Below are positions 45,477 to 61,121 of a stretch of 64,000 nt of DNA, piece after piece; position 1 is the stretch's first letter; each line of letters begins with the position of its first letter. The translations under genes and the position numbers were made by a program. Below the pieces are notes generated by a model, which was not told where the DNA came from, did not search any database, and saw only the letters and a program-made list of their open reading frames with translations. The DNA is from Wenjunlia vitaminophila DSM 41686 (GTDB lineage: Bacteria > Actinomycetota > Actinomycetes > Streptomycetales > Streptomycetaceae), in NCBI RefSeq assembly GCF_000380165.1, contig NZ_KB904634.1, positions 125,131 through 189,130 on the forward strand. The letters run 5' to 3'.

Positions 45477-45482
45477 TTGGTC

Positions 45483-46241
45483 ATGCCCACGGCGTTCATC
45501 ACCGGTGCCACCGCGGGGATCGGGGCGGCGTTCACCCGCCGGCTCGCTGCGGACGGCTTCGACCTGGTCCTCCTGGCCCGTGACCGCTCCCGCCTGGAGG
45601 AGGCCGCCGAGAGGTACCGCACCACCCACCGGGTGCGGGTGGAGACCCTGATCGCGGACCTGGCCACGGACGAGGGCCTGGCCGCGGCCGAGGACCGGGC
45701 CCGCCACGGGGTGGACCTGCTGGTCAACAACGCCGGTTTCGCCCAGCGGGGGACCTTCCTCAGGACCGACGTGGGCGAGGAAGTGGCCATGCTCAGGGTG
45801 CACTGCGAGGCCGTGCTGCGGCTCAGCCACGCGGCGCTGCCCGGCATGATGGAACGCGGCAGGGGCGGCGTGATCAACGTCGCCTCGGTTGCCGCGTTCT
45901 TCACCCGGGGCACCTACAGCGCCTCCAAGGCGTGGGTGGTCAACTTCAGCGAGAGCGTGCTGCGGGACATCGCGGGCAGCGGGGCCCATGTGATGGCGCT
46001 CTGCCCGGGTTGGACGCACACCGAGTTCCACGACCGGGCCAGCATGGACATGTCCGGTGTGCCGGGGTTCCTGTGGTTGGACGCCGACGAGCTGGTGGAC
46101 GCCGCGGTGCGTGACTTCCGCCGCGGCGTCCCGGTGAGCGTCCCAGGACTGCCGTACAAGGCGTTCATCGCCCTGGGCCGGGCGCTGCCACACGGTCTGA
46201 CCACGCGGATCTCCACCCGGGTGGGTCGGCGCTACCGCTGA
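45483..46241 (+). CDS. Short-chain dehydrogenase/reductase
   Basis: 252 residues. MPTAFITGATAGIGAAFTRRLA (TGxxxGxG), LLVNNAGFAQRG, INVASVAAF and YSASKAWVVNFSES (YxxxK). This DltE/YciK-like subtype often reduces carbonyls of fatty or aromatic compounds. ATG 45483 chosen because of the leaderless -10; a TTG two codons upstream with AGGAG before it is the alternative. Convergent with GH65. Confidence 0.9.
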   Translation: MPTAFITGATAGIGAAFTRRLAADGFDLVLLARDRSRLEEAAERYRTTHRVRVETLIADLATDEGLAAAEDRARHGVDLLVNNAGFAQRGTFLRTDVGEEVAMLRVHCEAVLRLSHAALPGMMERGRGGVINVASVAAFFTRGTYSASKAWVVNFSESVLRDIAGSGAHVMALCPGWTHTEFHDRASMDMSGVPGFLWLDADELVDAAVRDFRRGVPVSVPGLPYKAFIALGRALPHGLTTRISTRVGRRYR

Positions 46242-46266: not shown

Positions 46267-48699
46267 TCACTGCCGCACCACCTCGAGCCACTTCGCGTCG
46301 CCGGGAGCGATCACTTCGGCTTGGCCGTCCAGCACCACCCGGATCGGGAGCTGTTCGGACGCCGGCACGCTGACCCGCACCCGGTTGCCGCACAGCCGCA
46401 CCCCGACCCCCCAGTGCCCGCGGTAGCGGATGGAGAAGGAGAACTCCGACATCTCCGGCAGCGGCGCGGGGTTCAGCCACAACCCGTCGGTGCGGCCCTC
46501 GAGCCCGGTGAGACCGCGCTGCACCAGGTCCAGGGTGCCGCCCATGGCGCCCAGGTGGATGCCCTCCGCGGTGGTGCCGCCCTGCACGTCGGCGACGTCC
46601 TCGGCCAGCGCCTCAAGGACGTACTGCCAGGCGTCCACGCGTCGTTCCCTGGCCAGCACCCAGCCGTGCACCAGACCGCTCAGGGTGGAGCCGTGGCTGG
46701 TGCGGGCCAGGTAGTAGTCCACCGTGCGGTGCCAGTCGTCGTCGTCCAGGCGGTGGCCCAGGCTGCGCATCAGCCCCGCGAGCTCCTCGGGGGCGAAGAG
46801 GTAGCCGAGCATCAGCACGTCGGCCTGTTTGGACGCCTGGTAGCGGTTGACCGTGTCGCCCTCCGCCTCCAGGATGCGGTCGAGCCGCCGGATGTCGCCG
46901 TAGCGCCTCCGGTAACCGTCCCAGTCCAGCTCCAACAGGTCGCCGTAGCCGTCGAACTGGCTGATCACCCCGCGGTGGAACGGCACGTACAGCCCGTGGG
47001 CCACCTCCGCCCAGCGGTCCAGCTCCCCGTCCTCGAGGCCGATGCGCTCGAACAGCTCCCGGCGCCTGGGTTCGGGGAGGGTGGCTGCGAGCTCCAGGGC
47101 CCGTTGCAACACCCACGACGCGGTGACGTTGGTGTACGCGTTGTCGTTCACCCCGGGCCGCTCGGCGTCGGGGTAGCCGTCGTGGTACTCGTCGGGACCC
47201 ATCACCCCGCGGATGCGGTACCGACCCACCTCGGGGTCGAACGCGGCCAGGGCGGCCCAGTGGCGGGCGATCTGCGTCAGCATCTCGGCGCCCTTGGTGT
47301 GCAGGAACTCGACGTCCCCGCTGGCCCTGGAGTACTGCCAGACGTTGTAGGCCACGGCCGAGCCGACGTGGTGCTGCAGCCGGGAATGGTCCGGCAGCCA
47401 ACGTCCGGAGCGCGGGTTCAGGTGCAGCCGCTGGGTCTCCTCCCGGCCGTCGCTGCCGCTCTGCCACGGGTAGCGGGCCCCGGCGTACCCGGCCTCCCGG
47501 GCGGCGCGGCAGGCCTGGCGCAGCCGCCGGTGGCGGTAGGTGAGCAGGGCCTTGGACACCTCCGGGAGGTGCAGGTTGAGGTAGGGCAGGACGAAGAGCT
47601 CGTCCCAGAAGACGTGGCCGCGGTACGCCTCGCCGTGCAGTCCCCTGGCCGGTACCCCCACGTCCAGCTCCGCGGTGTGCGGGGAGAGCGTCTGGAGCAC
47701 GTGGAACAGGTGCAGCCGCAGGATGTGCCCGGCCTCACCGGGCACGTCGAGCTCGTTGCGCTGCCACAGGTGCCGCCAGGCGGCGCGGTGGGACGCGAGC
47801 AGGGTGGCGAAGTCCGGGGCCAACTCGACTTCCTCCAGGGCGGCCCGCAGCGGGTCGGAGACCGCGGTGTCCCGGGACGTGTGCAACGCGACGACCTTCT
47901 CCACCACGGACGGCTGGTCCTTGCCCACCGCCAGTTCGGTGCGCTGGGTGGCCCTGCGCTCCATCAACCGGGGGAACACCGGGGTGGGCCCGGCCCCGTC
48001 GGTGCCGCGGACCCGGGACGCCAGGGCCACGGTGATGCCCGAGGTGGTGGTGCGGCAGCGCAGCCAGGCCGTCTCGGGGCTGTGCATCCCGGTCTGGACC
48101 CCGTTCAGGTGCCGGCCCTCGAGGTCCCGGTAGCGGGCGACACCGTGGTTGGTGACCGTCCCGTCCAGGGTGCACTCGACCTCCACGGTGCCGGACCAGT
48201 CGTCGGCGGAGAACACGGTGTGCAGCGCCGCCACGTGCGGGTCCCCCATGTGGACCAGCCGGGTCTGCTCCACGCGCAGCAGCCGGCCGTACGGGTCCCG
48301 GTAGGTCATCCGGCGGGTGAGCGTGCCCCCGCGCAGGTCGAGGGTCTGCCGGTAGTCCAGCAGCCCGGGGCCGTCCGGGGACAGCCAGGCGGTGTCGGCG
48401 CCGCGTTCGATGGGCCCCTCGGCGGGTCGGTCGTCCGGGGGCAGGACGCGGAACCGCAGCGGCAGCCAGTTGGGGAGGTTGACCAGGTCCTCGTTCTCCA
48501 CGGCCCGGCCGGCGACGTCGGACACCAGCCGGTTGTAGCAGCCGGCGACGTAGGTGCCGGGGTAGTGGTGGGGTCCCGGGGCCGCCTCCGGGCAGGCGCC
48601 CCGGGTGGCGAAGTACCCGTTGCCGAGGGTGCACAGCGACTCGCGCAATCCCTCGTCCTCGGGCCGGTAACCCTCGTACTCCCAGGTCCATCGGGACAT
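46267..48699 (-). CDS. GH65 family disaccharide phosphorylase
   Basis: 810 residues, typical GH65 size. N-terminal beta-sandwich domain, linker helices, then the (alpha/alpha)6 catalytic barrel (about 320-700). General acid Glu504 in GVMGPDEYHDG; GHVFWDELFV and ASKQADVLML (phosphate-binding KQAD) indicate a phosphorylase rather than a hydrolase. The family splits trehalose, maltose, kojibiose or nigerose with phosphate into glucose and beta-glucose-1-phosphate; which one is not clear. The preceding HAD gene, three bases away, should use the product. Confidence 0.93.
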   Translation of the reverse strand: MSRWTWEYEGYRPEDEGLRESLCTLGNGYFATRGACPEAAPGPHHYPGTYVAGCYNRLVSDVAGRAVENEDLVNLPNWLPLRFRVLPPDDRPAEGPIERGADTAWLSPDGPGLLDYRQTLDLRGGTLTRRMTYRDPYGRLLRVEQTRLVHMGDPHVAALHTVFSADDWSGTVEVECTLDGTVTNHGVARYRDLEGRHLNGVQTGMHSPETAWLRCRTTTSGITVALASRVRGTDGAGPTPVFPRLMERRATQRTELAVGKDQPSVVEKVVALHTSRDTAVSDPLRAALEEVELAPDFATLLASHRAAWRHLWQRNELDVPGEAGHILRLHLFHVLQTLSPHTAELDVGVPARGLHGEAYRGHVFWDELFVLPYLNLHLPEVSKALLTYRHRRLRQACRAAREAGYAGARYPWQSGSDGREETQRLHLNPRSGRWLPDHSRLQHHVGSAVAYNVWQYSRASGDVEFLHTKGAEMLTQIARHWAALAAFDPEVGRYRIRGVMGPDEYHDGYPDAERPGVNDNAYTNVTASWVLQRALELAATLPEPRRRELFERIGLEDGELDRWAEVAHGLYVPFHRGVISQFDGYGDLLELDWDGYRRRYGDIRRLDRILEAEGDTVNRYQASKQADVLMLGYLFAPEELAGLMRSLGHRLDDDDWHRTVDYYLARTSHGSTLSGLVHGWVLARERRVDAWQYVLEALAEDVADVQGGTTAEGIHLGAMGGTLDLVQRGLTGLEGRTDGLWLNPAPLPEMSEFSFSIRYRGHWGVGVRLCGNRVRVSVPASEQLPIRVVLDGQAEVIAPGDAKWLEVVRQ

Positions 48700-48702
48700 G
48701 GT

Positions 48703-49539
48703 TCACCCCTCCCGGACGACGAGACGGGACAGGTCGTCCACCACCAGGTCGGCGCCGTGGGCCCGCAGCCCGGCGGCGCCCGACGGGTCCGGCCCGCGGT
48801 CCACCCCGACCACCAGGCCGAACCCGCCCCGCCGGCCGGCCTCCACACCGGCCAGGGCGTCCTCCACCACGGCCGTGTCGTTCGGCGGGACCCCCAGCCG
48901 GTGCGCCGCCTCGAGGAACAGCGCCGGGTCGGGCTTGCCCGGCAGCGCGAGCCGCGCCGCCTCGTCCCCGTCCACCAGCACCGGGAGCAGTTCCCGCACC
49001 CCGGCCGCGGCGAGCACCTGCCCGGCGTGCCGGGAGGCGGAGACGGCGGCGCGGGGCACCCGCTCCCGTTCCAGGACCCTCAGCAGCCGCACCGTCCCGG
49101 GCCAGGTGTCGACCCCCTGTTCGCGCAGTGCGCGGGTGAACGCCTGCTCCTTGCGGGCGGCGACCGCCCACACCGTGTCGGTTCCGGGCGGGTCCTGCGG
49201 CGTGCCCGTGGGGAGGTGGACGCCCCGGGAGGCCAGGAACGCGGACGCCCCGTCCAGCCTGGGCCGGCCGTCCACGTGCTCCCGGTACTCCCCCACCGGG
49301 TCGAAGGGCCCGCGCTGGGCGGGGTCCCGCGGGGGGCGTTCCCGCAGGTAGCCGTCGAACGCGAGTTTCCACGCGGCGGCATGCGTCCGGGCCGAGTCGG
49401 TGAGCACACCGTCGGTGTCCAGCACCACGGCACGAACCGCCCGCAACGGCGGCGCCAGGACGTCCCGCCCGGTACCCGCCTCCGGCGGCGGGCCTGCGGA
49501 CCGTGGCCGGTGCCCCGGCGCCCCGGATGGGGGTGACAT
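48703..49539 (-). CDS. HAD hydrolase, beta-phosphoglucomutase type
   Basis: 278 residues. HAD motif I is VVLDTDGVLTDSARTH (nucleophile and acid Asp), with AVSASRHAGQVLAAAG (motif II), GKPDPALFLEAAHRLG (motif III Lys) and VVEDALAGVEAGRRGGF (motif IV), the beta-PGM subfamily pattern. It should turn beta-glucose-1-phosphate from the GH65 enzyme into glucose-6-phosphate. Start ATG 49539 with AAGGAG upstream; first gene of the two-gene operon. Confidence 0.9.
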   Translation of the reverse strand: MSPPSGAPGHRPRSAGPPPEAGTGRDVLAPPLRAVRAVVLDTDGVLTDSARTHAAAWKLAFDGYLRERPPRDPAQRGPFDPVGEYREHVDGRPRLDGASAFLASRGVHLPTGTPQDPPGTDTVWAVAARKEQAFTRALREQGVDTWPGTVRLLRVLERERVPRAAVSASRHAGQVLAAAGVRELLPVLVDGDEAARLALPGKPDPALFLEAAHRLGVPPNDTAVVEDALAGVEAGRRGGFGLVVGVDRGPDPSGAAGLRAHGADLVVDDLSRLVVREG

Positions 49540-49668
49540 GGCCGCTCCTTCCTCCCCACCGTGCGGCGGGAGGTCCAGTGGCCGGTTGCGGTACCCCCAT
49601 TTCTCGACCTGATGCGCGGACGCCCGCGTCATCTCGGCCGGCCCCCCCGCCGTGCCGGGTGCCGGTCC

Positions 49669-49713
49669 CACGCGCAGCGCCCCGCCCCCACGGGAGGCGG
49701 GGCGGGGCGCGTG
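49669..49713. terminator. Terminator at the end of the lar/lipid operon
   Basis: Outer arms CACGCGC (49669-49675) / GCGCGTG (49707-49713) and inner arms GCCCCGCC (49679-49686) / GGCGGGGC (49696-49703) make a long GC hairpin 33 bases past the plsC-type gene. Confidence 0.6.
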
Positions 49714-49745: not shown

Positions 49746-50765
49746 TCAGTTCCGCCACACCCTCGGGTTGCCGTCGGGCCCCGAGGGACGGGTGGACTCC
49801 CAGACCTTGCGCCAGTCGGCCACGGGCCTGCCCCGTTCCACCGGGGTCCTGGTGACCGGCAGCGCGGGCTCCCGGCCCTCGGGGAGGTGCAACTTGCCCT
49901 CCTCGGCCGCCCGCAGCGACTGGTACCAGCCGAGGTCCTCCTCGGCCCACAGGGCGGCGACCTGCTTGAGCATCCTGGCCTGGAACTCCGCGGTGCCCTC
50001 CTCCTTGCCCGGGTACAGCGGCCGGCCGAAGCGGACCACCAGACGGGTCGCGTTGCGCGTCGGGAGGCTGGCGCCGCGGGGCATCGCCGCGAACGTGCCG
50101 CGCACCGCGATCGGCACCGCGGGGACGCCCATGCTCAGGCAGAGCCGGGCGGCACCCCGCTTGAACGCCGTCATCCAGCCGTCGTGCGAGCGGGTGCCCT
50201 CCGGGAAGAGCAGCAGGCTCCACCCGTCGTCGACGAGCTGGGCCGGCAGGCTGGGGCCGCCGCGTCGCCGGCCGTACCGGTCCACCGGGAAGGCGTTGAA
50301 GACCAGCGTGGTGGTGACGCTGACCGCCTTGGAGGTGAAGAAGTAGTCCGCGGCGGCGCCGACCGCGGTGCGGTCGGAGATCCTGCGGGGCAGCGCCCCC
50401 AGGATCAGCGGCGTGTCCAGGTGACTGGAGTGGTTGGCCACGAAGACCGCGGGTCCGCGCAGGCCCTCGAGCAGGTCCAGGCCCTCGATGGTGGGCCGGG
50501 TCTTCGCCCAGGCGTACGGCTTGAGGACGCCGCGCTGCAGGATGTTGCGCACGGCCCCGGCGGCCGGGGTGCGCGCCCACGCGGTCGGGAACGTCGTGGT
50601 GTCCTCGTCCCCGCTGCCGTAGCCGCCCGTGCTCCCGCTCGCCGTCGGGTAGCCCCGCGGGGTCATGGCGCGGCCCCGCAGGTCCCGGTTCTTCCGCAGC
50701 ATCGCCAGGTCGCCGCGCAGGCTTCCTCCGGTGCGCCTGGCCCCGCCCTTCTTGGCGCCGCTCAT
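49746..50765 (-). CDS. PlsC-type lysophospholipid acyltransferase
   Basis: 339 residues. Acyltransferase motifs I to III: NHSSHLDTPLILG (catalytic His-Asp), DRYGRRRGG, LLLFPEGTRSHDGW, then VPAVPIAVRGTF. It transfers an acyl chain to a lysolipid or other alcohol. An N-terminal extension of about 60 residues is charged. The ATG overlaps the stop of the LarA-like gene by four bases, so the two are translationally coupled; it is the last gene of the lar/lipid operon. The acceptor could be a product of that pathway rather than lysophosphatidic acid. Confidence 0.92.
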   Translation of the reverse strand: MSGAKKGGARRTGGSLRGDLAMLRKNRDLRGRAMTPRGYPTASGSTGGYGSGDEDTTTFPTAWARTPAAGAVRNILQRGVLKPYAWAKTRPTIEGLDLLEGLRGPAVFVANHSSHLDTPLILGALPRRISDRTAVGAAADYFFTSKAVSVTTTLVFNAFPVDRYGRRRGGPSLPAQLVDDGWSLLLFPEGTRSHDGWMTAFKRGAARLCLSMGVPAVPIAVRGTFAAMPRGASLPTRNATRLVVRFGRPLYPGKEEGTAEFQARMLKQVAALWAEEDLGWYQSLRAAEEGKLHLPEGREPALPVTRTPVERGRPVADWRKVWESTRPSGPDGNPRVWRN

Positions 50766-52339
50766 CGGACCGACGCCAGGGTGAGCGGGGGCATGTGCTG
50801 GTAGGTGATCGACGGGCTGGTGCCCACGGTGTGGGAGGCCAGCTCCAGCGCGTCGTTGAGCGTGGAGGCGGCCCGGAAGCCCAGCCGGGCGGCGGTCTTG
50901 CGGTCCGCGCCCACGAAGATCACCTCACCGAGGTGCTGCATGGCGTGCGCACCCCAGTACCACATGTAGAACGGGTGCACCCCGTGGTACGCGTAGCTCT
51001 TCCGGTACAGGTGGGTGTACCAGGGGTCCGTGGCGAACTGCTTCTCGTACTTGGCCTCGATCACCGCGGGGTCGGTGGTCTCGGCCAGGATCTCCTCGTA
51101 GAAGTCGATGTAGCTGGGGTGGTGCACCGGGTGGAACTCGTTGGGCATCGGGTGGTAGAAGATCGCCACCCCGCCCTCCCGGACGATGGGCTTGTTCACG
51201 TAGAGGTTGAAGAAGTAGCCCAGGCCCAGCGACATCACCAGGATCGGGTTCATCACCGAGTTGACGTTGTACGGGCCGATGTAGGGCAACCCGTAGACCG
51301 CCACGTCGGCCTGGCCGTCCACCTCGGTGAGCTGCTGCCGGTGCACGTTCTTCAGGGTGAGCGGGTGCACCTCGCTCGGCGCCCCCGCGTGCACTCCGGT
51401 GACCCCGTACGGCGCCTCCGTCTTGTGCCACAGCCGGCGCCGCATCGCCGGCTTCAGCAGGCCGTTGCCCCGCCGGGTGGCGAGGTAGGTGGCCTGGTCG
51501 GCGTAGTTCCACTCCCACTCGCGCTTGTTGAGGAAGCGTGCCGCGCTCGGGAACGTGTCGTTGTTGAGCGTGGTCTCGATCGTGAAGATCTTGACGTGGC
51601 CGCCGAGCAGGTCCGCCATCCGGTGGTACGAGTGGTGCATCGCCGAGTTCGGCGGGTCGTTGAACGACCGCGAGTGCTGCAGCGTGTGCACGTTGTGGTG
51701 GTGCCGCAGGCTGCGGTAGCTGGCCAGTCCCACCGCCACCGACTTGGGGCCGCCGCTCATCGCGGTGGAGGTGATGTTGACGTACACCACCAGGTCGCTC
51801 TCCGCCGCCCGGCGGTTGATCTCGACGTCCTCGCCCTCGTGGGTGTTCCCGAGGTGGACCAGGTTCTCCCGGTCCTCCGCGTCGTGGTTGGTCAGGTGCT
51901 TGGGGAAGAACGACCGGAACACCCGCTCGCCCACGATGTGCTTGAGCTCCGCCGGGGTCATCCTGCGGTGCAGGGCGTTGGCGGCGATCAGCTCGACGTC
52001 GTCCACGCCCTTGGCCGCGGCGAACTCGAGGACCTGCTCGATGATGCGCTGGCGCACGTCAGGACTGCGCATCGAGGGAAGCGGCAGCGACAGGTCGTCG
52101 AAGACGATCGTCAGCCGCATCCCCGGCGTCAACAGCTCGGGCAGGGGGTCCATCCCGTGCGGGTTCAGCAGCGCACGGCGGATCGCTCCGTCCAGGTCCT
52201 TGATACCCGGCAGCGAGTCCGGCGGGTAGATCACCCTGCTGCCGTGGGGCAGCCGCTCCAGCCGGAAATTCTCGCCCTCGTGCACCAGCAGCGGCGGGGT
52301 ACGTTCATCGACTTCCAGCACGAAGCCTGGTCTGCTCAC
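50762..52339 (-). CDS. Divergent LarA-family (DUF2088) nickel-pincer-dependent enzyme
   Basis: 525 residues, about 100 longer than lactate racemase LarA. N-terminal DUF2088 domain: LTIVFDDLSLPLPSM (the place of LarA's SDVTRP loop, Arg changed), NALHRRMTPAEL (catalytic His124), ENLVHLGNTHEGEDVEINRR, and MSGGPKSVAVGLASYRS, whose Lys199 is in the place of the Lys that binds the nickel-pincer nucleotide; LRHHHN follows. The His expected just before that loop in LarA seems missing (NITSTAMSGG). GTG start with GAGGAGAG upstream. The operon also holds larE, larB and larC. Reaction unknown; probably a racemase, epimerase or hydride-transfer enzyme on a lipid-linked alpha-hydroxy acid or alcohol. Confidence 0.85.
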   Translation of the reverse strand: MSRPGFVLEVDERTPPLLVHEGENFRLERLPHGSRVIYPPDSLPGIKDLDGAIRRALLNPHGMDPLPELLTPGMRLTIVFDDLSLPLPSMRSPDVRQRIIEQVLEFAAAKGVDDVELIAANALHRRMTPAELKHIVGERVFRSFFPKHLTNHDAEDRENLVHLGNTHEGEDVEINRRAAESDLVVYVNITSTAMSGGPKSVAVGLASYRSLRHHHNVHTLQHSRSFNDPPNSAMHHSYHRMADLLGGHVKIFTIETTLNNDTFPSAARFLNKREWEWNYADQATYLATRRGNGLLKPAMRRRLWHKTEAPYGVTGVHAGAPSEVHPLTLKNVHRQQLTEVDGQADVAVYGLPYIGPYNVNSVMNPILVMSLGLGYFFNLYVNKPIVREGGVAIFYHPMPNEFHPVHHPSYIDFYEEILAETTDPAVIEAKYEKQFATDPWYTHLYRKSYAYHGVHPFYMWYWGAHAMQHLGEVIFVGADRKTAARLGFRAASTLNDALELASHTVGTSPSITYQHMPPLTLASVR

Positions 52340-52457: not shown

Positions 52458-53684
52458 TCAGCCCTCCAGCGACAGGTCGAAGGCGATCTTGATGGACCCC
52501 GCGGAGCCGGCCGAGGACGCATGCTCCAGGGCCTGGCGCCAGTGGTGCAGCGGGTAGCGCTCGACATACCCGTCCAGGGGTGCGGACGCCGCGAGCGCGA
52601 CGGCCTTGGCGAAGTCGGAGCTGGTGTCCTCCTCCGGTCCCCCGGGCTCCCGCTGGCGCGTCGCGTACGCCCCCACCAGGTTCAGTTCCCTGAACCACAG
52701 CGGCGTGAGGTCAGCACCCGCCGTCGGCATGCCGGACAGCAGCACCGTACCCCCGGCCCGCACCGACCGCAGGGCGGTGTCCAGGCCCGAGGAACCCCCG
52801 GTGCACTCGAACGCGAAGTCCGCACCTCCGAGCAGGAACTCCGAGCCGATCTCCGGCCGGTGGGCCAGCGCCGAGGTCATCCTGCGCACCGCGCGCAGCG
52901 CCCGGCCCGGCTCGACCACCTCGGTGGCCCCGAGCTGCCGGGCCTTCTCCTGCTGGTGGCGGTACTTGGCGACCACGTGGATGGAACCGGCCTCGGTGAG
53001 CTGGCGCAGCGCCAGCACGGTGAAGAGCCCGACGGTGCCCGCCCCGACCACGAGCACGGAGGCACCCGGTGGGATCGGCACCCGGCGCACCGAGTGGATG
53101 GCGCAGGCCAACGGCTCGACCAGGACGGCCCGCTGGTCGGACAGCGAGTCCGGGATCGGGTGCAGTTGCTCCTCGTGGGCCACCATCCGCTGGCTCCACC
53201 CGCCGCCGGTGTCCGCGCAGAACCCGGTCTGCAGGCCGGGCGCGAGGTGGCCGGAGGTGATGTGGTCGCAGCGGTTGGTCTGCCCCTCCTGGCAGGACTC
53301 GCAGGGCGGCAGCCCGCGCACCCGGCAGGACAGCACCGAGTCCAGCACCACCCGGGTGCCCTTGGCGATCCCCGGCAGGTCGTCCAGGGTGGTGCCGACC
53401 ACCTCGTGGCCGAGCACGAACGGCGGGGAGGTCAGCGGCCCCAGGTAGGGGGAGGCGGTGCCGTGCAGCAGCCCGAGGTCGGAGCCGCAGATCCCGGAGA
53501 GCGTCGGGGACACCCTGGTCCAGCCGTCGCCCTTGGGGAGTTCGGGGTCCCCGTTGCGGACCAGCCGCAGGGGAGCGAGCGCCCCGGCGAGGGTGCCGCC
53601 GACCCGGCTGCGGGTGCGGCTCAGTCCGCGGGCGGCCAGGAAGCGCCCGGGAGAACGGTGGTACTCAAGCGCCAGGCTGCTCAT
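52458..53684 (-). CDS. Zinc-dependent alcohol dehydrogenase (MDR family)
   Basis: 408 residues. Catalytic zinc site SGICGSDLGLL, GHEVVGTTL; structural zinc Cys in PPCESCQEGQTNRCDH; Rossmann motif VLVVGAGTVGLFTVLAL. It resembles threonine/sorbitol-type dehydrogenases with an extra N-terminal 40 residues. ATG overlaps the reductase stop by four bases. In this operon it may set the redox state of a hydroxyl group handled by the LarA-like enzyme, or oxidise a fatty alcohol. Confidence 0.92.
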   Translation of the reverse strand: MSSLALEYHRSPGRFLAARGLSRTRSRVGGTLAGALAPLRLVRNGDPELPKGDGWTRVSPTLSGICGSDLGLLHGTASPYLGPLTSPPFVLGHEVVGTTLDDLPGIAKGTRVVLDSVLSCRVRGLPPCESCQEGQTNRCDHITSGHLAPGLQTGFCADTGGGWSQRMVAHEEQLHPIPDSLSDQRAVLVEPLACAIHSVRRVPIPPGASVLVVGAGTVGLFTVLALRQLTEAGSIHVVAKYRHQQEKARQLGATEVVEPGRALRAVRRMTSALAHRPEIGSEFLLGGADFAFECTGGSSGLDTALRSVRAGGTVLLSGMPTAGADLTPLWFRELNLVGAYATRQREPGGPEEDTSSDFAKAVALAASAPLDGYVERYPLHHWRQALEHASSAGSAGSIKIAFDLSLEG

Positions 53685-56032
53685 CGGGCCTTCTCCTGGT
53701 GAGTGGTGCCGGCGGTGGGCAGGGCGTGCACGGAGAGGTCCTGCACGGGCCGCGGGCGGGTGTGGGCGACAACGGAGTCCGACACGGTGTCCCAGCGGCT
53801 CGCCGTGTGGGTTCCCCAGCGGGAGATCTGCCAGTGCCGGCGTTTGGCGTGCCGGAACAGGCGGGTGTCCGGGTTGACCGCGCAGGGGTTGCCCACCGCC
53901 TCGAGCAGCGGCCGGTCCGAGTAGCTGTCGGCGTAGGCGTAGGAACGCGCCAGGTCCAGGTCGTGCTGCTGGGCGTGGTGCCGCAGCCAGGCCGCCCGGG
54001 CCTCGCCCACCACCGGCGGGGTCTCCAGGAACCCGGTCATCACCCCGTCCTCGGTGTGCAGCCGGCAGGCCGAGATGTGGTCGAACAGCGGTCGCAACGG
54101 CTCCACCAGCAGGTCAACGCTGCCGGTGATCAGGATGGTGCGGTGTCCCGCGGCCCGGTGGGCGCGGATGCGGCGGACCGCCTCGGGCATCACCCGGTGC
54201 AGCAGCGCGTCGCTGAGCTGCTCGTCGACGAGACGGCGCAGCTCCTCCACGTTGGCGCCGGCGTAGCGGCGGAAGAAGGTCCGGGCGAAGTCCCCTCGGT
54301 CCCGACGCTCGGCGATCAGGTAGCGCGGCGCGTCGCGGAGCAGGTCCCAGAACTCCGGCGCCCACTTGCCGCGGGGCAACGAGGCGAGCCGGGCCCACAG
54401 GTAGGACTCGACGATGTCGGAGGCGAGGATGGTGCCGTCGAGGTCGAACACGGCGGCGATGCCCTCGCCCGCCGGCAGGTTGACCCGCCCCCCGCGCGCG
54501 GTGGAGCCCCGCCCCCCCGTCCTGGCCCGCAGCGGGGCGGTGACCTTGGGGCAGTGCACCTCCTCGAGGTACACCCGCCAGTCGATCTCGCTGGGGTCGA
54601 AGCCGTGCTCGGCGGTCCGGTCCGCGGGGAGCGACTCGTGCAGCGCCCGCAGCTCGGTGTCGTCGTAGACCACCTCGGTGCGGGTGTAGACGCCGTACAG
54701 GTCCGAGTACTTGCGCAGGGTCTCCAGGGAGCGCTTCTCCCGGTGCAGCTTGGTCGCCCACTCCTGGGTCCGCTCGGTTCCCGGCAGGTGCCCGAGGAGC
54801 TTCTCGGCGGCGTTGGCCGCCCGCTCGCCGGCGGTCAGCGCCAGTTCCACCCGGGAGGCGCCGGGGAACGTCCAGGCGGGGGCCTTCACGTGGCCGCGCC
54901 CCGTGCTCTCCGGCAGCGGGTGGCGACCGAAGTAGCTGTACACGTGCCCGTACATCTGCCGCAGCGTCAGCGGGTTGGTGGCACCCGAGCCCACGTGGAA
55001 GTAGTGCGGCGCGTCCGGCGGCGGGGGCGCCGCCGCGGCGGCCAGGGTGGCGTTGACCACCAGGTCCACCGGGATCACGTCCATCACGGTGTCGGGCTGC
55101 CCCGGGATGTCCCGCAGCAGGCCGCTGCCGTAGGCGATGATCAGCGGGTCCGCCATCTTGTAGCCGTCGATCCAGCCCGGGTACGGGTGGCGCAGGGCGC
55201 TCTCCACGATGGCGGGGCGGACGACGGACAGGGGCTTGCCCGCCCACAGCTCCTCGGCTGCGCGCTCGGACATGGCCTTGGTGAACGTGTAGACGTCGGG
55301 CCAGCCCAGGATCTGCGCCCGGGTGCGGCCGTGGTCCACCAGGCGGTCCTCCACCCAGGCGCGGCGGGCCTCCTCGGCGTCCCGGGCGGCGGTCTGCGGA
55401 CCGGCCTTGCCGTGGGCGCGGTTGGCGCTGCGCAGCGTCTTGCGCAGCACCTCGGGGCGGCGGGAGTCGCGCTCCACCTCGGCGCGGGCGGCGAGGCCGA
55501 GCGCGAGTTCGGTGCGCCAGTCCACGTCGTGGGTCAGTCGGCCCTCGTGGATCAGGCCACGGCCACCGCTGGAGACGTACGCCGTGGAGATGTGCACCAC
55601 GTGCGGCGGGCGTTCCTGCTGGGCGAGCTTCTCGTACAGCGAGACGGCACCGGAGACGTTGGTGCTGAACGCCTCGTCGATGGGCGGGTCGAAGGACACC
55701 GTGGACGCGCAGTGGATGGCCACGTCCACGTCCCCGGGGATCTCGGCGGTGCCCAGGTCGCCCTCGAGGACGTTGACCCGCTCCAGCGCCTGGGCGATGG
55801 CCTCGTCGGCGCCGAGCTTCTCGCGCCAGGTACGGAAGACGTCCTTGCGCAGCAGCCTGGTGAACCGGTCCTGGGCGGTGCCGTTTCCGCGGGGTCGCAC
55901 GATGACCGAGACCCGGGTCTCGGGGTACCCGGACAGCAGTCGCTCCAGCAGCGCCTGTCCGATGAACCCGGTGGCTCCGGTGAGGAGGATGTGCGAGCCC
56001 CCGAGGTGCCCGATCCGGTACTTGCTCGGCAC
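53681..56032 (-). CDS. Fatty acyl reductase (SDR, NAD_binding_4) fused to a HAD-IB phosphatase
   Basis: 783 residues. N-terminal extended SDR of the fatty acyl-CoA reductase/male-sterility type: LLTGATGFIGQALLE (residues about 16-30), HISTAYVSS, catalytic YTFTKAMSE (Tyr248, Lys252) and VVRPAIVESAL. After a helical linker comes a HAD-IB domain from about 525: AVFDLDGTILASDI (nucleophile Asp530), ILITGSVDLLVEPL and YADSYSDRPLLEAVG. It should reduce an acyl thioester to aldehyde or alcohol and hydrolyse a phosphate ester. GTG 56032 has AGGAGGA upstream. Starts 80 bases after larC. Confidence 0.9.
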   Translation of the reverse strand: MPSKYRIGHLGGSHILLTGATGFIGQALLERLLSGYPETRVSVIVRPRGNGTAQDRFTRLLRKDVFRTWREKLGADEAIAQALERVNVLEGDLGTAEIPGDVDVAIHCASTVSFDPPIDEAFSTNVSGAVSLYEKLAQQERPPHVVHISTAYVSSGGRGLIHEGRLTHDVDWRTELALGLAARAEVERDSRRPEVLRKTLRSANRAHGKAGPQTAARDAEEARRAWVEDRLVDHGRTRAQILGWPDVYTFTKAMSERAAEELWAGKPLSVVRPAIVESALRHPYPGWIDGYKMADPLIIAYGSGLLRDIPGQPDTVMDVIPVDLVVNATLAAAAAPPPPDAPHYFHVGSGATNPLTLRQMYGHVYSYFGRHPLPESTGRGHVKAPAWTFPGASRVELALTAGERAANAAEKLLGHLPGTERTQEWATKLHREKRSLETLRKYSDLYGVYTRTEVVYDDTELRALHESLPADRTAEHGFDPSEIDWRVYLEEVHCPKVTAPLRARTGGRGSTARGGRVNLPAGEGIAAVFDLDGTILASDIVESYLWARLASLPRGKWAPEFWDLLRDAPRYLIAERRDRGDFARTFFRRYAGANVEELRRLVDEQLSDALLHRVMPEAVRRIRAHRAAGHRTILITGSVDLLVEPLRPLFDHISACRLHTEDGVMTGFLETPPVVGEARAAWLRHHAQQHDLDLARSYAYADSYSDRPLLEAVGNPCAVNPDTRLFRHAKRRHWQISRWGTHTASRWDTVSDSVVAHTRPRPVQDLSVHALPTAGTTHQEKAR

Positions 56033-56112
56033 TCGTGTCCTCCTGGGGTCGGGATCTGGTGGTTCGGTGGGTGGGCAGGTTGATGGTGCCAGGTCCGGAC
56101 CGGCGGGCACGC

Positions 56113-57363
56113 TCATGCGAGGGACCGCGCGGCCACGGACGGGGTGAGGTCCTGACGGTAGCGGCTCACGGCAGCTTCGCACACCGCGCGCACCGGCCAG
56201 CCGAGCGCGGTCGCGGCCAACTCCGCGTCCGCCAACTCCGGTTGCACGGTCACCGCACCGTCGGGTCCATCGGCGACCTTAACGGTGACGTGCTGTGCGG
56301 AGTCGGGCGGGCCGACGGAGACGGTCACCTGACGGCGTCGCAACATCACCCGCTGCTGTGCGACCCAGCGCACGCCCAGCGTAGTCGTGTGGCGGAACAG
56401 CGCCTCGGTGACCGCCGGGCGCACCTGGTGGGCGCAGAGCGCGGTGACCACCCGGCCCGGGCGGCCGTGCCGGCCCACGGTCTCGGTGGTCCAGCAGTCC
56501 CACGCGCCGGCGTCCCGCAGGGCGGCGAGCACCGAGGGCCACAGGCGGGGGTCGAGGTCGTCCACGGTGGACTCCACCACGACGACCTCGTCGGGGACGG
56601 GTTCGCTGGAAGCCGCGGCGCTGGCCCGTCCGACCACCACCCGGGTGACGTTGGGGCGGTCCCTGGTGTCCCGGGACCCACCACCCGTGCCCACGGCGCG
56701 CACGGTCATCGCCGGCAGCGGCCCCGGGGTGGCCAGTGCCGCGACCAGCGCGGCCCCGGTGGGAGTGGTCCGCTCACCGGCGAGCTCCCCGCCGGTGAGC
56801 TCGAGGCCGGCCCGGGCCGCGAGGAGGAGCACCGCGGGCACGGGGACCGGCATCCGGCCGTGGGCGCAGTCCACGCTGCCGCTCCCGGCGGCCAACGGCG
56901 AGCAGGTGACCTCGCTGCCCTCGGCGAGCAGCCCGAGGTCGTCCAGGGCGGCGGCGCAACCCACCACGTCGGCGAGCGCGTCGTAGGCGCCGACCTCGTG
57001 GAAGTGCACCGCGTTGGCGTCGGTGCCGTGGGCCTCGCCCTCCGCCTTGGCGAGCAGGGTGAAGACCCGCGAGGCGAACGCGGCGGCGCTCGGGGAGAGC
57101 CGGGCCCGCGCCACCAGTTCGAGCACGTCCGGCAGATGCCGGTGGTGGTCGGGGACCGAGGGCCGGGAGACGGTGACCCTCAGGCAGCCGAAACCGCCGC
57201 GGCGGTCCCTCCCGACGGTGAGGTCGAGGTCCGGCACACCGAGGGAGAGCACGGCCCCGCGCACCCGGTCATGGTCCGCCCCCGCGTCCAGCAGCGCGCC
57301 CAACAGCATGTCCCCGGCCACACCCGCGGTGCAGTCCAGGTGGGCGGCCTTGCGTTCATCCAC
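56113..57363 (-). CDS. larC: Nickel-pincer cofactor biosynthesis protein LarC
   Basis: 416 residues. LarC (DUF111) inserts nickel into the dithio-pyridinium nucleotide in a CTP-dependent step. Signatures: HLDCTAGVAGDMLLGALLDA at the N-terminus and NAVHFHEVGAYDALADVVG in the middle, then ERTTPTGAALVAAL and the C-terminal half (VVVESTVDDLDPRLW). In Lactiplantibacillus the protein is split by a frameshift into LarC1 and LarC2; here it is one frame. GTG 57363 overlaps the end of larB by eight bases; GGAGG is just upstream. Confidence 0.93.
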   Translation of the reverse strand: MDERKAAHLDCTAGVAGDMLLGALLDAGADHDRVRGAVLSLGVPDLDLTVGRDRRGGFGCLRVTVSRPSVPDHHRHLPDVLELVARARLSPSAAAFASRVFTLLAKAEGEAHGTDANAVHFHEVGAYDALADVVGCAAALDDLGLLAEGSEVTCSPLAAGSGSVDCAHGRMPVPVPAVLLLAARAGLELTGGELAGERTTPTGAALVAALATPGPLPAMTVRAVGTGGGSRDTRDRPNVTRVVVGRASAAASSEPVPDEVVVVESTVDDLDPRLWPSVLAALRDAGAWDCWTTETVGRHGRPGRVVTALCAHQVRPAVTEALFRHTTTLGVRWVAQQRVMLRRRQVTVSVGPPDSAQHVTVKVADGPDGAVTVQPELADAELAATALGWPVRAVCEAAVSRYRQDLTPSVAARSLA

Positions 57364-58129
57364 CGTGCATCCTCCGCACGATCTTCGCGGCGTGCGCGGC
57401 GGCACCGAAACCGTTGTCGATGTTGACCACGGTCAGTCCGGGGGCGCAGGAGGAGAGCATCGAGGCCGCGGCGGCGCGCCCGCCGTCGGCGAAGCCGTAG
57501 CCGACCGAGGTCGGCACCCCGACCACGGGGGCCGGTACCAGGCCGGTCACCACGCTGGGCAGCGCCCCGTCCATCCCGGCGACCACGATGACGCAGTCGG
57601 CGTCACGGATGTCGGCGAGGTGTTCGAGCAGCCGGGGCAGACCGGCCACCCCGACGTCGTCGAGCAGGCGGGTGCGCACACCCCAGGCGCTCAGCGCGGC
57701 GACGCACTCCCGGGCCACCGGGAGGTCGCTGGTGCCGGCGGTGAGCACCGAAACGGAGCCGTGCTCGGCGGGTGGGTCACCAACCGTGACGGTCCTGGCC
57801 ACGGGGTCCACCAGCACCGGCTGTCCGGGAAAGGCGTCCGGGGCCGCGGCGAGCACCTCCTGGGGGCACCTGGTGGCCAGCGCGGGTGTCTCCGGGGCGC
57901 GGTCACGGAGCTCGGCAAGCAGCCGCAGGGTCTGCTCCGGGGTCTTGCCCTCGGCGAACACCACCTCCGGCACGCCGGTGCGGCGCTGTCGTCCGGTGTC
58001 GAGTCGGGCGAAGTCCCCGACCCTGGCCACGGCGCCGTCGAGCAGGTCCGCGAGGGTCGCGGCGAGGGCGGAGTCACCCCGCTCGGGATCGGGGTCCCGC
58101 TGCGGCGACGTCTCCTCGACCTCGATCAT
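57356..58129 (-). CDS. larB: Nickel-pincer cofactor biosynthesis protein LarB
   Basis: 257 residues. LarB carboxylates and hydrolyses nicotinic acid adenine dinucleotide, the first step to the pincer nucleotide. The AIR-carboxylase-like domain is plain: VAGMDGALPSVVTGLVPAPV, GVPTSVGYGFADGG, and the Cys that binds the pyridinium ring is Cys228 in MLSSCAPGLTVVNIDNGFG. ATG overlaps the larE stop by four bases. Confidence 0.94.
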   Translation of the reverse strand: MIEVEETSPQRDPDPERGDSALAATLADLLDGAVARVGDFARLDTGRQRRTGVPEVVFAEGKTPEQTLRLLAELRDRAPETPALATRCPQEVLAAAPDAFPGQPVLVDPVARTVTVGDPPAEHGSVSVLTAGTSDLPVARECVAALSAWGVRTRLLDDVGVAGLPRLLEHLADIRDADCVIVVAGMDGALPSVVTGLVPAPVVGVPTSVGYGFADGGRAAAASMLSSCAPGLTVVNIDNGFGAAAHAAKIVRRMHGG

Positions 58130-59082
58130 GGTGCTGGTTCCTCTCGTGCTGGCCCGGCGGATCCGGTTCGGGACCCGGCGGCTGACGTGCTCACCGCCCC
58201 GGAACTGTACGGCCCCAGTCTCCCGGTCCCCATCGGCCCCACGGCGCCGACCCCCTCGAGCAGGGCGTGGGTAAGGCCGGGGCGGGCCTCGGCGAGGCGT
58301 AGCGCGGGGGCGTCCAACTCGATCCGGAAACCTCGGTCAAGGAGCCTCACCCGCACGTCCCGGGCGTTGACCCGGTGCTCCGCGAGGGTGGCCTGGACCC
58401 GGGCCTCGGCCTGCTCCACCAGGTGCAGGCGGTCCCTGGAGACGGTCAGGCCCACCGCGATCCGTGAGGCGAGGCAGGGCATGCCCGGCTTCTCGGAGAC
58501 GCTCAGCCCCCAGTGCCGGGCGACCGCGCGCACCGCGGCCTTGGTGAGCCCGGCGTCCGCGAGCGGCTCGACCACGGCGAGTTCACGGGCCGCGCGGAGC
58601 CCGGGGCGGTGCGGGGCGGACCGGTCGTCCAGGTGGGTGCCGGTGGCGACGTGCTCCAGGCCCCGGGCGGCGGCCAGCTCGGACACCCGGCCCAGCACGG
58701 TCTGCTTGCAGAAGTAACAGCGGTCGCCGGCGTTGGCCCGGTACCCGTCCACCGAGAGCTCGTCGGTGGCCAGGACGACCAGCTCGGCGCCGAGCTCCTC
58801 GGCGGTCCGCCTGGCCAGGGCCAGTTCGTCACGGGCCAGCGCCGGGGAGTCGGCGATGGCCCCCACCACGCGGCCGTGCGGGAGGGCACGCACGGCTGCG
58901 GCCAGCACGACCGCGGAGTCCACGCCGCCGGAGAACGCCACCGCCACGCTGCCGAGCCGCTCCACCTCGGTGAGCAGGGCGGCTTCGGCAAGCGCGGGAT
59001 CAACGGGTTCCGACGGCGGCGCGGGTTCCCCGTGTCGGCCGGACGGGCCGGCCGACACGGGGAGGGGTGCGGAGCCGGTCAT
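58126..59082 (-). CDS. larE: ATP-dependent sacrificial sulfur transferase LarE
   Basis: 318 residues. LarE adenylates the carboxylates of the cofactor precursor and donates sulfur. PP-loop AFSGGVDSAVVLAAA (residues 51-56 SGGVDS), RCYFCKQTVLG with two Cys (122, 125), and the sulfur-donating Cys203 in GMPCLASRIAVG, matching Cys176 of the Lactiplantibacillus enzyme; hence the sacrificial type rather than the cluster type seems likely. Coupled by a four-base overlap to the diiron gene upstream and to larB downstream. Confidence 0.94.
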   Translation of the reverse strand: MTGSAPLPVSAGPSGRHGEPAPPSEPVDPALAEAALLTEVERLGSVAVAFSGGVDSAVVLAAAVRALPHGRVVGAIADSPALARDELALARRTAEELGAELVVLATDELSVDGYRANAGDRCYFCKQTVLGRVSELAAARGLEHVATGTHLDDRSAPHRPGLRAARELAVVEPLADAGLTKAAVRAVARHWGLSVSEKPGMPCLASRIAVGLTVSRDRLHLVEQAEARVQATLAEHRVNARDVRVRLLDRGFRIELDAPALRLAEARPGLTHALLEGVGAVGPMGTGRLGPYSSGAVSTSAAGSRTGSAGPAREEPAP

Positions 59083-60020
59083 GCGGAGAAGCCGAGTGCC
59101 GAACGTCGGCGGTTCTTGGCCATCTTGGTTCCGACCACCTTGGCGGCGCCGGCCGCGGCGGCGGCCCCCGCCAGCAGCCCCAGCGGCTTGGCCAGGGGCT
59201 TGCTCGTCTTGGGCACCACGGGCACCGGGACGCCGGCGCCGAACGCGGCGACACCCTGCTGCACCAGCCTCAGCCCCTCCATGCCCGGCAACTTCTCGAC
59301 CTTGTCGTCGATCTTACGGATCGCCTCGGCGCCCGCCTCGTCACCCAGCAGGTGCTGGAGGACGAACCGGGTCTCCTCCTCCGGCTCGATGGTGGAGCCC
59401 ACCGGCTGCCAGAAGCGCTGGGTGATCCACCGGGTGATCGCCCTGGCCCGCTTGGAACGCTCCAGGCGCTCCCTGGCCTGGCTGGCGTAGAACGCCAGGT
59501 GGCGGGTCTCCTGCCGCTGGATTCTGGTGAGCAGCTTGGTCAGCTCCGGGTGCTGCTCCTTGGCGATCAGGCTGCCGTAGGCGGCGTGCGCGGACCACTC
59601 GTTGATCGCGCCCCACGTCATGTGCACCGCGACGAAGTCGTCCCCGACCGTGTTGGCCGCGAGCGACTGGTAGATGGGCGACAGCCGGTCCTTGATGCCC
59701 TGGGCCAGCCGCACCGACCGGATGTGGTCGTAGTCCGCCTTCACCCCGTGGGTCCGCAGCACCGCGTCGAGCGCCTCGCCGTGCCAGAACTCCTCGAACG
59801 CCCACATCGACATGAACGCGGTGACGTCGGGGTCCCGGTGCGAGGGCGTCACCAGGACGTCCCGCAGGTAACAGATGGTGTGGCTCTCCACGTCGGACAT
59901 GTAGCGCAGGCAACGCAGCGTCTCCGGCGAAAGGGGGCGGCGCACGAATGCCTCATGGTCCAGATCATCGACCTGCACCCGCCCGGCGTTGTTGATGTAG
60001 CCGGTTATGTCGAAGGTCAT
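59079..60020 (-). CDS. Ferritin-like diiron protein with acyl-ACP-desaturase ligand pattern
   Basis: 313 residues, mostly helical. Candidate iron ligands are Glu45 (VESHTICYL), Glu77 and His80 (FEEFWHGEAL), Glu141 (INEWSAHAAY), Glu171 and His174 (RQETRHLAFYA): the same order and similar spacing as in stearoyl-ACP desaturase (E, ExxH, E, ExxH). A hydrophobic Ala/Gly-rich C-terminal segment (about 270-300) could bind membrane. It may desaturate or hydroxylate an acyl chain. First gene of the eight-gene operon; ATG 60020 with GAGG upstream. A longer start at 60032 is possible. Confidence 0.82.
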   Translation of the reverse strand: MTFDITGYINNAGRVQVDDLDHEAFVRRPLSPETLRCLRYMSDVESHTICYLRDVLVTPSHRDPDVTAFMSMWAFEEFWHGEALDAVLRTHGVKADYDHIRSVRLAQGIKDRLSPIYQSLAANTVGDDFVAVHMTWGAINEWSAHAAYGSLIAKEQHPELTKLLTRIQRQETRHLAFYASQARERLERSKRARAITRWITQRFWQPVGSTIEPEEETRFVLQHLLGDEAGAEAIRKIDDKVEKLPGMEGLRLVQQGVAAFGAGVPVPVVPKTSKPLAKPLGLLAGAAAAAGAAKVVGTKMAKNRRRSALGFSA

Positions 60021-60458
60021 GGCTCTCGTCATCCTCGGGGGTCGAAAGGCGGAACACGTCCTGCACTGCACCGGACATGACGGTCACGTCCCAGGCACAC
60101 TCTGTATCCCAAACGCGCTGAGTCCATCACGGTACTTGGTTTTATATCAACAGCAGTTGAGTTGGGGTGAGTATGGTCCAGAAGCGCCTTCCGACGCCAC
60201 CGGCGACACTGGAGCGCGACTCGCGTCCGTCCCGCTCCCCGGGCACGCCGGCGCACCCACTCCCCGTCTCCCTGCAACGACCCACGATGCCCTGGCAGAT
60301 GGCCATTCGGAAGTCGGATTCGGTGATGCGGAAAGGGCGCGGCCGAGTCCCGGTCGAACGGCTGCGCCAGGAACCGCCAGCTCCTCGCGCCGAGTTGTCC
60401 GGGCCGCTGTACGCCGCGAGCGAACAGCGGCCGTGACCAACGCCACGTCGGCTTCGGG
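60021..60458. other. Control region upstream of the lar/lipid operon
   Basis: 438 bases between the TetR stop and the first operon gene. Besides the inverted repeat with its AT-rich flank nothing is recognised; open frames here are Arg/Pro-rich and lack ribosome sites. Confidence 0.45.
60147..60160. promoter_or_regulatory. Inverted repeat in the promoter area of the lar/lipid operon
   Basis: TCAAC-AGCA-GTTGA overlaps an AT-rich element that reads GATATAAAA on the minus strand, about 125 bases upstream of the operon's first start. It is the best candidate for promoter and operator and may bind the adjacent TetR protein. Confidence 0.45.
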
Positions 60459-61121
60459 CTATTCCGCGCCACCGTCCAACCCACCGGGACGGTTCCAGGA
60501 CGCGGACAGCGGCAGCGGACCGAACAGATAAGCGTCGATGGTGGCACCGACGAACCGCGCCAACTCGGCGAGCGGCAGGTCGGCGAGCGGCGCCATCCGC
60601 ACCACATAACAGATCATCGCGGTGCCCACCAGGTGCGAACTGGCCAGCGCCGCCCGCAGTTCGGCACGGTCCGCCACGGCGCGGTCCGCGACCTTGCCCA
60701 CCAGCTCACGGGAGACGAACTCGCGCAACATGTCGGCGGCCGGCCGGTAGGAGGCCGCGGACATCAGCATCGCCTGGAGCGGCCCCCGGGTCTCCACGTC
60801 GTTCCACAGCCCGAAGTAGTAGTCGGCGATGCGTTCCCCGACCCCCATCGAGGCGTCGCCGACGATGCGCCCCACCACCTCGTCCCCCGGCATCACGTCG
60901 GCCATGGCCGCCAGGTAGAGCCCCTCCTTGTTGCCGAAGAACTGCACGACCAGGGACGGGTCAACACCGGCCTCCCGAGCCACCGCGCGCAGGCTGCAGG
61001 AGGTGTACCCCTGTGCGAACTGGCGCTTGGCGGCGCGGATGATGTCCGCCCTGGTGTCCGGGCGTCCGGGGCGGGGCCCGAGCGGCCTGAACCCAGGTCT
61101 CGTCGCTCGTTTCCTGGCCAC
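60459..61121 (-). CDS. TetR-family transcriptional regulator
   Basis: 220 residues. HTH region: TRADIIRAAKRQFAQGYTSC, SLRAVAREAGVDPSLVVQFF, GNKEGLYLAAMADV. The C-terminal domain (about 80-205) is of the TetR_C_17/AcrR-like kind. GTG start. It precedes the lar/lipid operon in the same direction, 438 bases away, and is the likely local regulator. FadR/DesT-type acyl-CoA sensing would fit the context but is not shown by sequence. Confidence 0.9.
   Translation of the reverse strand: MARKRATRPGFRPLGPRPGRPDTRADIIRAAKRQFAQGYTSCSLRAVAREAGVDPSLVVQFFGNKEGLYLAAMADVMPGDEVVGRIVGDASMGVGERIADYYFGLWNDVETRGPLQAMLMSAASYRPAADMLREFVSRELVGKVADRAVADRAELRAALASSHLVGTAMICYVVRMAPLADLPLAELARFVGATIDAYLFGPLPLSASWNRPGGLDGGAE

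Follow-up and report, generated by a model that had tools for sequence, protein, structure and literature searches.

The window considered here, a stretch of 64,000 nucleotides from Wenjunlia vitaminophila DSM 41686 (contig NZ_KB904634.1, positions 125,131 to 189,130), carries on its minus strand a homolog of the lactate racemase LarA, referred to below as LarAH. The gene is part of a close-packed run on that strand which reads, from 60071 down to 49746, ferritin-like, larE, larB, larC, a fusion of fatty acyl-CoA reductase (FAR) and HAD-IB phosphatase (FAR-HAD), a zinc-dependent medium-chain dehydrogenase (ADH), LarAH and a PlsC-like acyltransferase (Table 1). Genes of the run overlap, and the widest gap, of 118 bp, lies before LarAH. 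The neighbouring lipid genes are the best clue to the function of LarAH, and they were absent from an earlier note on this DNA.

Table 1. Genes of the run that contains LarAH, in window coordinates.
Feature	Position	Strand	Evidence
PlsC-like acyltransferase	49746..50765	-	Pfam Acyltransferase 1.6e-18; 4-bp overlap with LarAH gene
LarAH14-type LarA homolog, 525 aa	50762..52339	-	Lar_N 3.3e-44; NF052592 909.2 bits; model pLDDT 95.6; 9q3k Z 41.4
Zinc-dependent medium-chain dehydrogenase (ADH)	52458..53684	-	ADH_N 2.6e-15, ADH_zinc_N 3.8e-14
Fatty acyl-CoA reductase/HAD-IB phosphatase fusion (FAR-HAD)	53681..56182	-	NAD_binding_4 2.2e-46, HAD 1.3e-35
larC	56113..57405	-	TIGR00299 and NF052512 over cut-off
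larB	57356..58129	-	NF033503 246.9 bits, cut-off 175
larE	58126..59082	-	TIGR00268 233.9 bits, cut-off 150
Ferritin-like, possible di-iron protein	59079..60071	-	PF03405 (FA_desaturase_2) E 0.003, below cut-off

The LarAH14 gene and its surroundings

The open frame of LarAH has a GTG start and encodes 525 residues. That the protein belongs to the LarA family, as the earlier note had claimed, is confirmed by this frame, by its Pfam Lar_N domain and by the NCBIfam model NF052592, which it matches over 520/520 positions, well above the cut-off of 740 bits. The model pools LarA homolog groups 14, 15 and 16 and bears the name 'NPN-dependent hydroxyacid isomerase, LarAH14/15/16 family', NPN being the nickel-pincer nucleotide. 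By sequence, the nearest proteins of known structure are LarA homologs with a single catalytic His (9q2u at 2.7e-37, 9q3j at 3.1e-33), with lactate racemase, 5huq, at 2.5e-12; a profile of 65 sequences raises these matches to 1.8e-104, 2.7e-87 and 2.6e-29.

The AlphaFold2 model, built on a 65-sequence alignment, has a mean pLDDT of 95.6 and a pTM of 0.93. Compared by VIA-align 2, it fits 9q3k (LarA_Sp) with a Z of 41.4 and a root-mean-square deviation (rmsd) of 2.2 over 451 aligned residues, followed by 9q3j (37.8), 9eid (32.2), 5huq (30.4, rmsd 3.2) and 4nar (23.8), which is annotated as a putative uronate isomerase; the remaining folds stay at a Z of 6.2 or below. Foldseek likewise puts 9q3k and 9q3j on top and 4nar last among the clear matches. 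A pseudogene or frame artefact is ruled out by the open frame and the pLDDT of the model, and an ordinary lactate or malate racemase by the residues described below and by the NCBIfam models for such enzymes, which score only 66–91 bits (cut-offs 460–540). A gene residing on known plasmids was also considered and rejected: 72,556 plasmid records hold no full-length LarAH match, and nine have partial ones at 24–30%.

Among the best 80 of 579 confirmed places, which make up our locus set of named contigs, the closest copies are those of S. aculeolatus and S. phytophilus (89%), and the carriers are, by record title, Nocardioides, Kribbella, Frankia, Actinomadura and a few Streptomyces. Seven other genomes of the window's own family were sampled, and a LarAH14 match occurs in none of them.

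As to the neighbours, residues 59–572 of FAR-HAD match a fatty acyl-CoA reductase structure (7eoz, 5.3e-49), with the HAD domain coming after, and the best structures for ADH are a putative zinc dehydrogenase, a ketose reductase, and butanediol and sorbitol dehydrogenases. The ferritin-like protein that heads the run has ExxH-type motifs and a counterpart at L188:14289-15080; such a gene lies near LarAH in 8 of the 140 loci described below and also beside FAR-HAD in NZ_CP109481.1, and its product might modify the alkyl chain. Upstream of the run, at 60459-61121, stands a gene that by eye is TetR-like. Just downstream of it (46267-49671, minus strand) lie genes for a family 65 glycoside hydrolase/phosphorylase and a beta-phosphoglucomutase-like HAD protein, a pair not found in the best 80 of the 579 LarAH loci.

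Altered residues at the predicted nickel-pincer site

Residues were matched through PDB and profile alignments and read with the numbering in PMC7583248 and PMC12611868; the relatives surveyed are 130 distinct sequences, 48% or more identical, that passed filters on length and completeness. Lys199 aligns with the NPN-binding Lys (K184 of LarA from L. plantarum, LarA_Lp; K195 of LarA_Sp), His124 with the catalytic His (H108 and H115, respectively) and Asp82 with D72 and D73. The placements of Lys199 and His124 given in the earlier note are thus borne out by alignment, and so is its statement that the Arg of the SDxTRP loop is lost. Leu85 occupies the site of R75 of LarA_Lp, which is K76 in LarA_Sp, and Arg or Lys occurs there in none of the 130 relatives.

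Two other points in that note need to be revised. The His before the cofactor Lys is not replaced by Ser or Thr: the loop that precedes SGGPK lacks four residues present in LarA_Lp, Mar2, LarA_Sp and LarA_Bw, so that the counterpart of H174 (N185 in LarA_Sp) is deleted. These four columns hold no residue in 130/130 relatives, and a His anywhere at 186–197 was found in one. Nor is the HHH (213–215) unusual, since its last residue, His215, aligns with the nickel ligand (H200 of LarA_Lp, H211 of LarA_Sp) and is invariant. Also invariant in all 130 are D82, H124, K199, N188, Y357, H452 and H455, while the residue just before Lys199, Pro198 in the window, is a His in 87.

The C-terminal domain, which in LarA_Lp holds the catalytic Lys298, aligns poorly with that protein by sequence. 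Against LarA_Sp, Tyr357 corresponds to Y307, His455 to H401 and His452 to H398 (the last number counted along the chain), with Pro356 at H306. The roughly 100 extra residues that had been pointed out are real when 525 is set against the 433 of the LarA_Lp chain, but they are no special trait, as LarA_Sp and LarA_Bw have 498 and 505.

The altered site is a trait of the whole family and not peculiar to the window gene. It is also already in print. Gatreddi 2025 reports the His174 equivalent as missing from groups 14 and 15 (PMC12611868). Section 8 of Desguin 2020 suggests that groups without counterparts of H174 or K298 may catalyse another hydride-mediated reaction, and sets aside groups 12, 13 and 16, whose members may not use NPN (PMC7583248); in Table 1 of the same paper, a purified Frankia LarAH14 is negative for seven racemase or epimerase activities. 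The window protein, itself uncharacterised, belongs to a LarA family that has been described, as has its loss of the His; what is added here is the cassette setting. Kept cofactor residues together with changed substrate-binding and catalytic residues point to another substrate or reaction. On this last point, the earlier suggestion gains from the Frankia result and from the tie to lipid genes, although the change is neither new nor specific to this gene.

Conservation of the lipid cassette and possible links to ether lipids

The neighbourhood was compared over 140 loci with LarAH at 48% identity or more, drawn from named contigs and genome stretches (eight are repeats, leaving 132 distinct); for unannotated loci, open reading frames were called by our own script from GC content by codon position. 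FAR-HAD lies upstream of LarAH on the same strand in 115/117 testable loci, ADH within 6 kb in 119/124 (of the other five, three have it at about 8 kb and two lack it) and PlsC downstream in 105/127. Of the 22 loci without this PlsC, 19 are from Rubrobacteraceae and the remaining three are copies of a single locus truncated at its contig end. Six of the Rubrobacteraceae loci have, by sequence, a PlsY-like gene directly before FAR-HAD, and the three tested by Pfam all match PF02660 at 1e-51 or better. Pairwise distances correlate with those of LarAH at 0.92 for FAR-HAD (96 loci), 0.90 for ADH (122 loci), 0.90 for PlsC (75 loci) and 0.58 for LarB (20 loci), whose gene is present in 28 of the 140 loci. 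FAR-HAD, ADH and LarAH14 stay together as one block, which in most cases includes an acyltransferase.

More distant LarAH loci (28, at 26–43% identity) never hold FAR-HAD, ADH and PlsC together; weak matches occur to FAR-HAD and PlsC in L120, to FAR-HAD in L101 and to ADH in L114 and L116. Loci L101-L111 form a second group of long LarA homologs (37–43% identity, 7 of the 11 in family f22), which keep K199, H124 and H215 without the lipid cassette; the f22 genomes have alkyl-DHAP synthase (AGPS; DHAP, dihydroxyacetone phosphate) instead.

The same association is seen across a sample of 246 actinobacterial genomes spread over the phylum. LarAH14 exceeds its cut-off in 61, and FAR-HAD is present in all 61 (Fisher p 2e-52, kinship ignored). 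FAR-HAD reaches E<1e-40 in 66 genomes, the five extra ones being three with a partial LarAH14 and two with FAR-HAD at a contig end. LarB is over its cut-off in 55/61 LarAH14 carriers versus 99/185 other genomes; one of the six carriers lacking it has LarC2 and LarE.

Three hints, converging but indirect, suggest that the product of the cassette is an ether lipid. The first comes from the Rubrobacteraceae. By its title, Sinninghe Damste 2023 (cited in PMC11150832) found Rubrobacterales, in five species, to be dominated by mixed ether/ester lipids. The sampled family f18 is Rubrobacteraceae, a contig of one member (G076, C2) being identical to a Rubrobacter indicoceani plasmid over the 6,591 bases compared; of its 21 sampled genomes, 20 have LarAH14 over the cut-off and one a partial copy, and all 21 have FAR-HAD. 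The abstract of the 2023 lipid study reportedly mentions a putative operon for 1-O-alkyl-glycerol phosphate, and the link of the operon to ether lipids may already be in print. In the literature searched, no paper has both 'lactate racemase' and 'ether lipid', the two wordings used.

The second hint is that known ether-lipid enzymes are absent where they were looked for. DUF2229, which we take to be the mark of PlsA/Ger-type enzymes, was found in none of the 34 carrier genomes examined, of which 20 are Rubrobacteraceae, and was detected in 4 of 14 control genomes, Thermotoga included. AGPS at E<=1e-90 occurs in 34/246 genomes, none of them LarAH14 carriers (p 5e-5, again ignoring kinship), and at E<=1e-40 there is none in the window's genome. 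At least 161 LarAH loci contain no AGPS beyond weak GlcD-like matches, in a search that did not include ElbD. From four Rubrobacteraceae genomes and the window's genome, 16 FAD-oxidase proteins were collected; the seven scanned resemble glycolate oxidase, D-2-hydroxyglutarate dehydrogenase or D-lactate dehydrogenase. Separately, of 20 AGPS loci from the sampled genomes, four (L228, L234, L235 and L236, from three other actinobacterial families) have an ADH resembling that of the cassette (31–35%) close to the AGPS-like gene. These belong to a different gene cluster, which by eye also holds a thiamine-diphosphate-enzyme-like gene and, in 3/4, 2-hydroxyacyl-CoA dehydratase-like genes.

The third hint is an apparent enzyme swap in Streptomyces sp. 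NBC_01450. Its record NZ_CP109481.1 is the only one of the 72,556 plasmid records in which a FAR-HAD match covers 80% of the query. There, the neighbours of FAR-HAD are a ferritin-like gene and a PlsC gene (54% and 46%, respectively, to their counterparts in the window), a short-chain dehydrogenase/reductase (SDR) gene 46% identical to the one at 45477-46241 in the window, and a gene for a 566-residue protein that finds its best structural matches among alkyl-DHAP synthases (2uuu at 1.6e-114, 4bby at 8.9e-85). The 26-kb locus has no LarAH14 or ADH match at 1e-3, and the whole record no LarAH at 1e-5. In a midpoint-rooted tree of 98 sequences, the NBC_01450 FAR-HAD falls inside the cassette clade on a long branch (0.75), with node supports of 1.0 at the 23- and 12-tip nodes and 0.90 at the 10-tip node; in a ten-sequence tree, its ferritin-like protein groups with the window's clade (0.86). 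I read this as AGPS and the SDR probably standing in for LarAH14 and ADH. The same record (L245:3278-11377) also has larE-larB-larC elsewhere and, about 4 kb away, a DUF362 gene (PF04015, 1e-33). A published tree of the LarA superfamily (PMC11770544) contains DUF362 sequences, and this protein could be another NPN user.

Several observations weigh against a role in ether-lipid synthesis. The exchange for AGPS is a single instance, known from a plasmid record alone and with a long FAR-HAD branch, and in the PlsC tree the NBC_01450 protein, again long-branched, does not group with that of the window. FAR-HAD lies near none of the 20 other AGPS loci from the sampled genomes, and weaker AGPS-like matches, some spanning most of the protein, do occur in seven LarAH14 carriers (2.3e-75 to 2.1e-41), one of them in the Rubrobacteraceae. 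The lipid literature considered covers Rubrobacter carriers only, and the co-occurrence tests treat related genomes as independent. Finally, LarB, LarC2 and LarE were not found in five LarAH14 drafts that are 81–95% complete (G084, G106, G160, G181 and G213), two of which share one genus; this may reflect an assembly gap, NPN salvage, or loss or use without NPN.

A proposed pathway, its rivals and known systems

We propose, with moderate confidence and from sequence comparison, that LarAH14 is an NPN enzyme in a cassette most likely making 1-O-alkyl (ether) glycerophospholipids. In animals, ether lipids arise when a FAR provides fatty alcohol, AGPS makes 1-O-alkyl-DHAP, a reductase acts on this and an acyltransferase follows later. 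In the cassette, FAR would convert acyl-CoA to fatty aldehyde or alcohol, ADH would reduce the resulting ketone, of the 1-O-alkyl-DHAP type, to 1-O-alkyl-glycerol 3-phosphate, and PlsC would acylate the latter. Since the cassette supplies a FAR, a ketose-reductase-like ADH and an acyltransferase, what is left for LarAH14 would be a step in which the alkyl chain and the glycerol phosphate unit are prepared or linked to each other, by a hidden-redox hydride shuttle. LarAH14 and ADH together would then do the work of AGPS and its reductase.

The residues would suit such a step: a reaction that inverts no stereocentre may need only a single catalytic His, and absence of the Arg is consistent with a substrate that has no alpha-carboxylate. 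It is tempting to go further and to regard LarAH14 as a nickel-pincer ether synthase that itself forms the ether bond via NPN, although we consider this doubtful. A hydride of an alcohol would be borrowed onto NPN, fatty aldehyde would condense with DHAP or glycerol 3-phosphate, and return of the hydride with loss of water would give 1-O-alkyl-DHAP. A hydride-borrowing etherification of this kind would be redox-neutral, with a single acid/base His required and a carboxylate-binding Arg dispensable. Such a LarAH14, with ADH as its reductase, would be an analogue of AGPS of separate origin and, to our knowledge, the first NPN enzyme to join two substrates.

In the main rival, the lipid pathway is the same, but LarAH14, as an NPN isomerase or epimerase, would do no more than make a substrate ready, for instance through inversion or relocation of a hydroxyl on a polyol, a glycerate-type or a hydroxy-lipid precursor, and the lipid bond would be formed by another enzyme. 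We regard this as unlikely, if a serious contender. The reactions shown for LarA homologs (PMC7583248) invert C2 of hydroxyacids, the NCBIfam family is named for hydroxyacid isomerase, and the closest structures, LarA_Sp and LarA_Bw, are thought to act on carbohydrates (PMC12611868); but the second catalytic base and the carboxylate Arg are gone family-wide, the Frankia protein has none of the seven activities, and the AGPS cluster of NBC_01450 manages without LarAH14.

It is improbable that the cassette makes some other FAR-derived lipid, such as a wax-like ester, a long-chain diol or an acylated alcohol, with LarAH14 acting there. FAR, ADH and an acyltransferase would also fit such products; the PlsC and PlsY types of acyltransferase, however, indicate glycerol phosphate, and the Rubrobacteraceae and the AGPS case indicate ethers. 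That LarAH14 is no longer an NPN enzyme and keeps its residues for another metal or role is very improbable, for although the drafts without LarB, LarC2 and LarE, the loss of Arg75 (an NPN contact in LarA) and the fold match to 4nar would agree with it, there is no variation at K199, H215, H124 or D82, even those five genomes retain K199 and HHH, and the larEBC genes of the window's run and the frequency of LarB in cassette loci and carriers speak for the cofactor.

If LarAH14 is an NPN enzyme of ether-lipid synthesis, nickel-pincer chemistry would extend from hydroxyacid racemization to membrane lipid synthesis. There would be a candidate enzyme for the ether lipids of Rubrobacter, in whose examined genomes no clear AGPS or PlsA/Ger-type enzyme was found, and ether lipids would be predicted in Nocardioides, Kribbella, Frankia, Actinomadura and the few Streptomyces carriers. 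Several groups of LarA homologs without a catalytic His have no known reaction; for LarAH14, a testable pathway is now proposed.

Among known systems, the LarAH14 of Frankia belongs by NF052592 to the same family as the window protein; no function or pathway is given for it in the available part of Desguin 2020, whereas the family is tied here to a lipid cassette. LarA_Sp (9q2u/9q3k) and LarA_Bw (9q3j), the best fold matches, share with the window protein the NPN Lys, the nickel His, one catalytic His, and Tyr and His residues of the C-terminal site, with the exception of H306, which is Pro356. They have Asn at His174 and Lys at Arg75, where the window protein has a shorter loop with no aligned residue and Leu85, and their gene neighbours as reported in PMC12611868 are sugar genes, in place of lipid genes. 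LarA of L. plantarum (5huq) shares Lar_N and the counterparts of K184, H108, H200 and D72, but it has the His174 and Arg75 (NPN phosphate and substrate carboxylate) that the window protein is without.

On the lipid side, the elb operon of Myxococcus xanthus (PMC9131029) also brings FAR, HAD phosphatase and AGPAT-like domains together in one operon, as the cassette does; there, FAR is fused with acyl-CoA synthetase, acyl carrier protein and acyltransferase in ElbD, whereas in the window FAR is fused to HAD. The AGPS route is similar in setting in that the AGPS of NBC_01450 sits in a cluster with FAR-HAD, PlsC and the ferritin-like gene; AGPS itself is an FAD enzyme unrelated to LarAH14.

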